Shown here: positions 31,889-34,284 of the stretch, piece after piece
How positions within the stretch are numbered: the first letter of the stretch is position 1
Layout of the letters: every line of letters starts with the position of its first letter
NCBI GenBank assembly: GCA_903859705.1
Contig: CAIONQ010000036.1
Coordinates: forward strand, 1-64,000
Direction: 5' to 3'
Origin: an uncultured Chthonomonas sp.
GTDB lineage: Bacteria > Armatimonadota > Chthonomonadetes > Chthonomonadales > Chthonomonadaceae
DNA length: 64,000 nucleotides
The notes under the pieces: generated by a model
Seen by the model: the letters and a program-made list of their open reading frames with translations, nothing else
Told to the model about the DNA's origin: nothing
The model's database searches: none
Made by a program: the position numbers and the translations under genes

Positions 31889-31894
31889 TATAAT
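31889..31894 (+). promoter_or_regulatory. Candidate -10 element of the small selenoprotein-like gene
   Basis: TATAAT at 31889-31894 lies 39 bases before GTG 31934; the -35 position (near 31866, TGCAAA) matches poorly. It separates the divergent hydrolase and small-protein genes. Confidence 0.4.
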
Positions 31895-31933
31895 TTATTG
31901 AGGGTAATGTACCCGGAGTGGAGGAGACAAAGC

Positions 31934-32119
31934 GTGGACTGGCTAATGCCAATTGGATTTCTGGCAGTATGGATACTGCTACAGCGGGTTATATTGCCGC
32001 GTATGGGAGTTGAAACCTGAATGAGCCCGAATGCGCACGAGGGTTCGTGTGCGGTTCCTAAACCAGATTCTGCAGCATCAAATGGCTCGAACGATGGCAA
32101 AAAGCCACCATTGGAGTAA
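31934..32119 (+). CDS. Candidate selenoprotein: 61-codon membrane protein with in-frame UGA (Sec29)
   Basis: GTG 31934 follows GGAGGAG (31920-31926) at seven bases. The first 28 codons encode a membrane helix (WLMPIGFLAVWILLQRVIL, residues 3-21) and PRMGVET. TGA follows at 32018-32020 and the same frame continues with MSPNAHEGSC and a polar tail to TAA 32117. If TGA reads as selenocysteine the product is 61 residues, with U29 and C39 ten residues apart, a plausible redox pair. A hairpin 12 bases after the TGA fits a bacterial SECIS, and the rho-independent terminator follows the TAA, not the TGA. If TGA is a true stop, a 28-residue membrane peptide is made. I recognise no family. No selA, selB, selC or selD gene is in the window. 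Confidence 0.6.
32018..32052 (+). promoter_or_regulatory. Candidate bacterial SECIS element (UGA codon plus hairpin)
   Basis: TGA 32018-32020 is followed by GCGCACGA (32033-32040), loop GGGT (32041-32044) and TCGTGTGC (32045-32052): an 8-bp stem with one G-U pair. The loop starts 20 bases after the UGA and begins with G. Known bacterial SECIS elements have the apical loop roughly 16-37 bases after the UGA and a G among the first two loop bases. Confidence 0.55.
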
Positions 32120-32125
32120 CTGCGC

Positions 32126-32163
32126 ACAGCCGCCGCCCGGGTGTTTGGGGCGGCGGCTGTTTT
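32126..32163. terminator. Terminator after the candidate selenoprotein gene
   Basis: ACAGCCGCCGCCC (32126-32138) pairs with GGGCGGCGGCTGT (32148-32160), followed by TTT. It begins seven bases after the TAA at 32117-32119. The convergent methyltransferase gene stops at 32168. Confidence 0.9.
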
Positions 32164-32167
32164 ACTG

Positions 32168-32794
32168 CTATGGTTTGCGCGCTAACACCTGCACCACATG
32201 GGCAGAGCCGGTGTGGTATCGCCCTTCAATCACATCTCTGGTAATCTCCTGGCCAATCTCAAAATCGAGGCCCGCCAGTTCCCCTTTCAAATCTTCAAGC
32301 TTCATCAGCAAATCTCTATTGGACGGGCCGCCGGTACCACTCTCCGCTTGATCCGGTGTATACGCCTCCAGCAGAAATACTCCCCCAGGTTTGAGCCCCG
32401 CAACCACCGCGGCATGCACGCGCCTCCGCAGTTCTACCGGCAGGTGAGCGAATATGGATACAATTCCCGTATAACACTCCTGCTCTATTACATAATCGGC
32501 GAGATCAGCAACCACTGTTTCGATGGATACATCGTAACTCGAGGCCAACTCTTGCGCTTTAAGCAAACCAGCTTCTGCGCCATCCACCCCGGTTACAGAA
32601 TAGCCCTGACGAGCCATAAACACCCCGTTACGCCCCTCGCCTTCTGCAAGAAATAACGTGTTCCCCTGCGGGATTGACTGCCAGTTGGCCGCCAGAAAAT
32701 CGTTTGGCTGGTCTCCAAACGCATAGCCTTGCTCACTATAACGGCTGTTCCATAACTCTGCCGAATACACCGGCCGGTTCGCATTGTCTGTCAT
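32168..32794 (-). CDS. Class I SAM-dependent methyltransferase
   Basis: The 208-residue product starts at ATG 32794, six bases after GAGG (another ATG three bases up is possible). The Rossmann SAM-binding fold is seen in LFLAEGEGRNGVFMARQGYS followed by VTGVDGAEAGLLKAQ (residues 47-82), and LKPGGVFLLEAYTPDQA near residue 137. Sequence resembles the TehB/thiopurine-methyltransferase-like group, some of which methylate tellurite, selenite or thiol compounds; the substrate here is not known. It is upstream-adjacent to the photolyase gene on the same strand and convergent with the candidate selenoprotein. Confidence 0.88.
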   Translation of the reverse strand: MTDNANRPVYSAELWNSRYSEQGYAFGDQPNDFLAANWQSIPQGNTLFLAEGEGRNGVFMARQGYSVTGVDGAEAGLLKAQELASSYDVSIETVVADLADYVIEQECYTGIVSIFAHLPVELRRRVHAAVVAGLKPGGVFLLEAYTPDQAESGTGGPSNRDLLMKLEDLKGELAGLDFEIGQEITRDVIEGRYHTGSAHVVQVLARKP

Positions 32795-32817
32795 CATATA
32801 CCTCTTCGCACAGTTTG

Positions 32818-34284
32818 TTAAACTAATCCATCCAGAAACTGCTCTGCAGCATTCATCAGGTGGGTGCGCCTCTGAATATCCATTTTATCGAACATTGCGG
32901 GCGCAACTCCAAACCGCTGATTTGTGCGAAAAACATCGCGATGCCTATCGATAAACCGCCAGTAGAGCCCATCCCAGATATCGGTCCATGGCCCTGTTTC
33001 CCAGTCTCCCATTTTCCGCAGGTAGGCGCTGCCGCATATGTAAGGTTTTGTAGACATCAATCCACCATCAGCAAACTGGCTCATTCCATAAACATTGGGC
33101 ACCATCACCCAGTCGTTGGCATCCACAAATAGGGTCATAAACCACCGGTAAACTTCATCCGGGTGTATCTCACACAGAAGCATCAGGCAACCAAGCACCA
33201 TGAGCCGCTCTATATGGTGGCAGTAGCCCGAGTTTAGCAGCCGTGATATCACCACATCTGCCGGTGGAAGTCCCGTTTGCGCATTCCAGAAAGCCCGTGG
33301 CATCTTTCGCGTAAATCCAAAGGTATTCCTTGTTCGTTGCTGCCTGCCGGCGTAAACATAAACACCGCGGATAAACTCTCGCCAGCCTATTACCTGCCGA
33401 ATGAAGCCTTCAACCGAGTTCAGCGAAACGTTGGCCTCATCAGCGGCTGAAAGCGCAGCATCTACCACTTCCTGCGGGGTGATTAGCCCGGTGTTGAGCG
33501 CAGGAGTAAGGCAGGAGTGAAAAAGCAGACCATCATCTGCCGCCATGGCATCTTCATAAGGTCCGAATAGTTCAAACCGATTAGCAAGAAAGTGATGTAG
33601 ATGGTTACGGGCCCCTGCATGCGTCACCTGGTATGTAAATTCACCGCCCAACCCCGGCGCATTAGGGAAGTGTGTTTCAACCCAACGTCTGGCATCCAAC
33701 ACGGTTTGATTTGTTGCGGGCATGAGCGGCTGCGGAACCGCAATAGAGCGAGGAAGGCGCCTGCGATTGTCTTCGTCGAAGCTCCAGCGCCCGCCTGTTG
33801 GCTTGCCATCGGCATCTACCAGGATGCCCATTCGGGTTCTCTGTTCCTGGTAAAAGGCCGCCATCCTATACCGGGTGCGGTCCGCAAAGTAGGCCTCGAG
33901 TGAGGCTATCGGGGTAAGAAACTGAGGGGTCGCAGCAAATCGCAGGCCAAGTACTCCTTCAAATGCTGCCCTTATTTCGTGCTCGAGCCAATCATCTGTT
34001 ACATCGTAACACACTACATCGGTTACGCCCTGATCATAAATCCATCGCGCCTCGGTGTTGAGCCCTGAGTACTCGTTTATCGACACATACCGAACGATTG
34101 CCCCGGCCTCTCGAAGCCGTTGTGCGAAGCAACACATGGATGCGCGGTGCAGTATCAGCCGGGAAGCATGAAACTTAAGCTGTGTAAAATAGAGCGGATG
34201 TTCGATAAGCAGCACATGCCGCCCGGCACAGCGCGGCAGAACATCTTCAAAGAGTTGGTGTGGAAATAAGAGAATAGCCTTCAA
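32818..34284 (-). CDS. Cryptochrome/photolyase-related protein (DPRP class)
   Basis: The 488-residue flavoprotein of the deoxyribodipyrimidine photolyase-related class starts at TTG 34284 (no clear ribosome binding site). The N-terminal Rossmann part has LLFPHQLFEDVL and LIEHPLYFTQLKFHASRLIL. The FAD-binding C-terminal half has EGFIRQVIGWREFIRGVYVY, HHIERLMVLGCLML, DANDWVMVPNVYGMSQFADG and KPYICGSAYLRKMGDW. The CxxC ... C insertion that carries the 4Fe-4S cluster in PhrB/CryB-type proteins is missing: after KMGDW comes ETGPWTDIWDGLYW. It should therefore belong to the cluster-free subgroup. Role: repair of UV lesions or blue-light signalling. Confidence 0.88.
   Translation of the reverse strand: MKAILLFPHQLFEDVLPRCAGRHVLLIEHPLYFTQLKFHASRLILHRASMCCFAQRLREAGAIVRYVSINEYSGLNTEARWIYDQGVTDVVCYDVTDDWLEHEIRAAFEGVLGLRFAATPQFLTPIASLEAYFADRTRYRMAAFYQEQRTRMGILVDADGKPTGGRWSFDEDNRRRLPRSIAVPQPLMPATNQTVLDARRWVETHFPNAPGLGGEFTYQVTHAGARNHLHHFLANRFELFGPYEDAMAADDGLLFHSCLTPALNTGLITPQEVVDAALSAADEANVSLNSVEGFIRQVIGWREFIRGVYVYAGRQQRTRNTFGFTRKMPRAFWNAQTGLPPADVVISRLLNSGYCHHIERLMVLGCLMLLCEIHPDEVYRWFMTLFVDANDWVMVPNVYGMSQFADGGLMSTKPYICGSAYLRKMGDWETGPWTDIWDGLYWRFIDRHRDVFRTNQRFGVAPAMFDKMDIQRRTHLMNAAEQFLDGLV

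Follow-up and report, generated by a model that had tools for sequence, protein, structure and literature searches.

A predicted family of very small bacterial membrane selenoproteins with selenocysteine at the membrane border and a likely thiol/selenol redox role

Bacterial selenoproteins whose selenocysteine (Sec) is decoded with the help of SelB and of a bacterial SECIS element (bSECIS) share a UGA codon followed, 16–37 nt away, by the small loop of a hairpin, which has 3–9 nt and a G at its first or second position (PMC13188914). SelA, SelB, SelC and SelD are encoded in the same genome, and the Sec is often followed by a Cys. Selenoproteins of the thioredoxin-like or UxxC type, such as thioredoxin, TlpA-like and rhodanese-like proteins, also combine a Sec with a nearby Cys. 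In eukaryotes, SELENOK and SELENOS are small proteins that cross the membrane once and contain one Sec, which is located outside the helix and near the C-terminus. Sulfide-response loci of the SqrR/BigR type are under ArsR regulation and contain rhodanese/DUF2892 or sqr genes. Regulators of the ArsR type include sensors of sulfide and persulfide (PMC11858517).

The stretch of 64,000 nucleotides from an uncultured Chthonomonas sp. that was analysed here (the window) contains, at positions 31934–32119 of the forward strand, a gene that, as judged from sequence, almost certainly encodes a selenoprotein in which an internal UGA is read as Sec. It resembles the SelB-decoded proteins in having a UGA with a G-containing loop at the described distance and in belonging to a genome with all four Sel genes, and nothing in the way Sec is inserted departs from the known bacterial mechanism. 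The protein itself stands apart from the described systems. Like the UxxC-type proteins, it has a Cys near the Sec, and a thioredoxin or rhodanese gene is adjacent in some homologues; unlike them, the family shows a U-x4-C motif and no thioredoxin fold, and its members have only about 45–80 residues, half of which form a membrane helix. Compared by general features with SELENOK and SELENOS, the Sec is found directly at the membrane border, and the SECIS is of a different type.

The family appears to be new: it was found in no catalogue, and a mention outside the open-access literature is possible. When 28 members were scanned against NCBIfam r20 (June 2026) and Pfam, no match above chance was obtained; the best chance-level hits were to ATP synthase b-type and similar helices, with E values of at least 0.002 and far below the cut-offs. 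None of the 119 prokaryotic selenoprotein families in a 2026 catalogue fits by name or motif, the families without an HMM being judged by their descriptions. A profile search of solved structures returned nothing, and nothing closely similar, in DNA or in protein, was found in plasmids. Published selenoprotein finders require homologues with Cys and standard gene callers stop at the 28-codon reading frame, which is likely why the family has been missed; the paper on deep-Sep states that this tool may miss proteins without Cys homologues (PMC12013277).

The gene begins with a GTG (31934–31936), which is preceded at 7 nt by the ribosome-binding site GGAGGAG (31920–31926), and ends with a TAA (32117–32119), giving 61 residues with Sec as residue 29 (32018–32020). 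A longer reading frame in the same phase starts at an upstream ATG (31841), but homologues begin at the GTG position, with MDW. Further upstream, the sequence TATAAT (31889–31894) is a possible, weak −10 promoter element; scanning for the consensus revealed no complete sigma-70 promoter there. Directly after the TAA follows an intrinsic terminator (32120–32160), composed of a GC-rich hairpin and TTTT, with a folding energy of −31 kcal/mol and a z-score of −3.5. No Rfam family was detected in the window. The original prediction, which was made from the letters of the DNA, had described the GGAGGAG site, the GTG, 28 codons ending in GVET, the in-frame TGA, the continuation of the frame to the TAA and the rho-independent terminator, and all of these elements were recovered at their positions.

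Homologues are found at increasing evolutionary distances. A search of the window protein against 40 relatives revealed members within its own genus, order and phylum, each with a single TGA in the corresponding position, and a profile built from nine members extended this to 28 TGA-form genomes within the phylum. A wider scan of 84,980 species genomes employed the pattern W[FVI][VF][LI][QMS][RAK][WF][VL]LP, which is located wholly upstream of the Sec codon, so that the scan does not select for TGA. It yielded 64 loci in about 15 phylum-level groups, of both uncultured and cultured bacteria: Armatimonadota, Acidobacteriota, Planctomycetota, Verrucomicrobiota, several deltaproteobacterial lineages, Myxococcota, SAR324, Spirochaetes, Latescibacterota, Calditrichaeota, Zixibacteria, KSB1, LCP-89, Chloroflexi and an actinobacterial MAG. 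The aligned codon is TGA in all 63 analysed scan loci, and the 64th is a divergent, Cys-like form. Among the 85 distinct homologues collected by profile searches, 83 have TGA at this codon, two have a Cys codon (L059, GIGTCMSGAC; L061, GIPTCCSGPC) and none has TAA or TAG. The Cys-for-Sec homologues that the original prediction had proposed to search for thus exist, although very rarely, as these two members and the divergent scan locus. The latter (L125:4966–5082), from a relative in the Verrucomicrobiae, carries Cys at the Sec position (FKVSGCRSAAC), has a tail rich in Cys and His with QCGCGHDH as its last residues, and is possibly a metal-binding derivative.

The family consensus consists of a short N-terminus, one hydrophobic helix, the motif W-[FV]-[VF]-L-Q-x-W-[VL]-LPRxGVxT-U-M-S-x-x-C and, last, a short charged tail. 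No variation is seen at L21, P22, G25 or T28 in the alignment (A6). In the window protein, the segment before the Sec (31937–32017), which ends in LPRxGVxT, contains one predicted transmembrane helix with a hydropathy maximum of 1.92 (Kyte–Doolittle, 17 residues), the mean of this maximum in the family being 2.27. This helix is predicted to act as a membrane anchor. The net charge is −0.7 before the helix and +1.6 after it, which suggests that the N-terminus is outside and the Sec-containing tail inside, in the cytoplasm. The Sec had been placed on the face after a single membrane helix; the helix is indeed predicted, and the side, which had been left unclear, is predicted from the charges to be the cytoplasmic one.

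The partner of the Sec is less uniform. The first Cys after U is 5 residues away in 64 of the 83 Sec members and 6 residues away in 12, and it is absent or distant in six. In the window copy it is 10 residues away: Cys39 (32048–32050) is the putative resolving cysteine by alignment, in a U-x9-C arrangement where most homologues have U-x4-C. Five members (L048, L066, L069, L070 and L120) keep the U and a SECIS-like hairpin and have a tail without Cys, so that a resolving Cys is not strictly needed. Both residues of the predicted U29–C39 pair are therefore present, while their pairing can be considered only a suggestion, as the Cys stands 5 residues after U in most homologues and is missing in these five. 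After the TGA, close pairs of members show 24, 21 and 39 substitutions at the three codon positions, in 18 synonymous and 45 nonsynonymous codons; this indicates only weak constraint on the protein over the entire tail, and these patterns are given no weight in favour of the Sec reading.

A function for such a protein is suggested by this motif and by the neighbouring genes. The whole explanation considered probable is that of a single cistron for a 61-residue Sec protein that would act as a membrane-tethered selenol/thiol redox relay. SelB loaded with Sec-tRNA would bind the hairpin about 12 nt past the UGA and insert Sec at residue 29; the product would be a membrane peptide with a single helix, N-terminus out and C-terminus in, its Thr-Sec pair lying at the membrane border and the Cys in the short charged tail. 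The Sec would attack a sulfane-sulfur, a disulfide or a similar substrate, the tail Cys would resolve the resulting selenenyl-sulfide, and thioredoxin would reduce the protein again. These relay steps are derived from the U-x4-C motif and from the gene neighbours, and a thiol/selenol redox role as such is likely.

The neighbours were identified by a six-frame search around the 85 members, in which genes within about 350 nt were regarded as adjacent. The commonest one, directly beside the family gene in 11 loci, encodes a protein of the thioredoxin family, which we infer to be the strongest clue to redox chemistry. A regulator of the ArsR family adjoins in nine loci, and 11 of the 12 ArsR hits are within 1 kb. 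DUF302 genes adjoin in seven to eight loci (the DUF302-adjacent loci are L043, L045, L054, L072, L076, L087, L107 and L113), and, since every DUF302 hit in the loci is adjacent, within about 310 nt, a functional link is suggested for this family of unknown function. An independent whole-genome search also located DUF302 beside the family gene in four genomes (G001, G032, G043 and G067). Genes for FmdB zinc ribbon proteins adjoin in eight loci (L060, L074, L090, L095, L106, L111, L112 and L115), several of which also have ArsR. Four related Syntrophaceae loci contain C_GCAxxG_C_C and DUF2892 genes, two or three loci a rhodanese or rhodanese-DUF2892 gene, one locus the gene of a type III SQR-like enzyme, and one that of a CoA-disulfide reductase, part of which is rhodanese-like.

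Sulfide, persulfide or related thiol-reactive stress is the setting suggested by the adjacent genes of the ArsR family and of DUF302, rhodanese/DUF2892, SQR-like and CoA-disulfide-reductase proteins. That the setting is one of sulfane-sulfur is a tentative reading of the sequences, somewhat short of an even chance, and, as about 40 of the 85 loci have no recurrent neighbour, it may hold for only part of the family. Several homologue loci resemble those of the SqrR/BigR type in combining the family gene with ArsR, rhodanese/DUF2892, DUF302 or SQR-like genes; unlike them, they encode a selenoprotein of a kind that was not found described for such loci in the open-access literature. Their ArsR proteins may or may not be BigR/SqrR orthologues. 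It is conceivable, at a similarly guarded level, that the family represents ancient, widespread mini membrane selenoproteins with a near-obligate Sec, which together with thioredoxin, ArsR and DUF302/rhodanese form an undescribed system for sulfane-sulfur and thiol stress at the membrane surface. A Sec that is hardly ever replaced, across about 15 phylum-level groups and almost without Cys forms, would open to direct test, on a peptide of 60 residues, what selenium can do and sulfur cannot.

The same neighbours can be read in another way, in which the protein is a real selenoprotein that handles metals, metalloids or selenium, with Sec and Cys as ligands, and in which ArsR, FmdB and DUF302 would be signs of metalloid or zinc chemistry. 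Regulators of the ArsR/SmtB type are sensors of metals no less often than of persulfides, and for the ArsR neighbours of L109 and L045 the best match is the general HTH_metalloreg model; with the BigR model, whose cut-off is 155 bits, they reach 47 and 37 bits, respectively. Similarity of a DUF302 protein to one encoded in an sqr plasmid operon of Synechocystis, and to a potential arsenic oxidase, has been noted (PMC5061849). These ArsR scores and the tentative ties of DUF302 to both sqr and arsenic make metal or metalloid handling a serious rival; it is nevertheless rather unlikely, as thioredoxin is the gene most often adjacent and the rhodanese, SQR-like and CoA-disulfide-reductase neighbours suit sulfur better.

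About as doubtful is a role within a larger membrane complex, as one of its small subunits or as its regulator, in which the Sec would serve as a redox switch and have no catalytic turnover of its own. The very small size, the one helix, the lack of an apparent fold of its own and the strongly conserved end of the helix, LPRxGVxTU, would suit such a role, but no single recurrent large membrane partner adjoins the family gene in the 85 loci.

The reading of the UGA as Sec, on which the proposed redox relay depends, finds its evidence in the hairpin, the family and the genome. In the window, the hairpin GCGCACGA-GGGT-TCGTGTGC (32033–32052) has a stem of 8 bp and a loop that begins 20 nt past the UGA, as had been predicted. 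The segment 32018–32060 has a minimum free energy (MFE) of −16.9 kcal/mol (z = −2.5), equalled by 3 of 200 dinucleotide shuffles, and the hairpin is equalled by 85 of 1000 synonymous-codon shuffles. A single copy is thus only moderately improbable, and the case rests on the family and the genome. The full bSECIS constraints are satisfied by 70 of the 83 Sec members, including the window copy, and the strict threshold (MFE ≤ −7.5 kcal/mol) is missed by the other 13. In a test with synonymous shuffles, in which the protein sequence was kept fixed and the same hairpin search was run on the shuffled sequences, the best model-conforming hairpin had a family mean of −8.6 kcal/mol, compared with −1.9 kcal/mol in the shuffles (z about −21).

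Covariation was analysed in 25 members that share one loop distance, grouped by their best hairpin placement. All seven stem pairs show changes on both sides, and although the grouping by placement is biased towards the four inner pairs, covariation extends to the outer ones, which were not selected. Paired cells amount to 90%, versus 58% in the shuffles and 30–40% when one strand is slid, and the covariation score of 0.82, versus 0.24 in the shuffles, was reached by none of 500. The window copy has an insertion between its U and C, which has moved the Cys codon out of the 5′ arm into the 3′ arm, and a hairpin is still at the usual distance from the UGA, as expected if this spacing is constrained. 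The proposal of a bacterial SECIS is therefore supported both by the fit of the window hairpin to the model and by the shuffles and covariation in the family.

The source assembly (6.2 Mb, 96% complete, Armatimonadota) encodes selB (387 bits), selA (467 bits) and selC, the tRNA-Sec (63.9 bits), all above the curated cut-offs. Its selD (L039, G000:C149:20127–21071), likewise above the cut-off, contains one in-frame TGA in the active-site loop, RCAG-U-ASKIG, followed by a hairpin. The genes selA, selD and selC are clustered on contig C149, and selB lies apart, on C107. With the four genes that had been suggested as a check all found, and with selD in the Sec form, the organism reads UGA as Sec and possesses at least one further clear selenoprotein. 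Across the phylum, with selB called at E ≤ 1e-60 in 291 genomes, it was detected in 24 of the 28 TGA-form genomes versus 142 of all 291 (Fisher p = 3.5e-5, uncorrected for kinship). The four TGA-form genomes in which an intact selB was not found (G030, G045, G067 and G212) are fragmented or incomplete assemblies, and the absence is probably due to missing sequence. Both Cys-form genomes, G089 and G214, have no selB above the cut-off.

That the TGA is an ordinary stop, at which a 28-residue membrane peptide ends before a frame kept open by chance, is very improbable. The standard code does read TGA as stop, and the strongest conservation lies in the 28-residue part; however, the identity of the stop is invariant, the other two aligned members having Cys, the frame runs on through conserved sequence that includes a Cys, the hairpin after the UGA has accumulated compensatory changes, and the genome decodes Sec. 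The homologues hence continue beyond the UGA instead of ending there, and the assignment of the codon to Sec29 is strongly supported. Two coupled short reading frames, of which the first would end at the TGA and the second be reinitiated at the adjacent ATG, are the least probable reading of all, since this ATG, present in the window and in 58 of the 83 members, is replaced by another codon in the remaining 25 (including CGG, CTT, GGG, TTT, GCG and ACC), the Cys forms are one read-through frame, and reinitiation requires neither a TGA-specific stop nor a SECIS.

The window copy of the selenoprotein gene is alone, with none of the recurrent neighbours of the family, and is flanked by two genes of the opposite strand. 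The reverse strand at 32168–34284 encodes, as judged by sequence, a SAM-methyltransferase-like protein (209 aa) and a protein related to cryptochromes and photolyases (488 aa).
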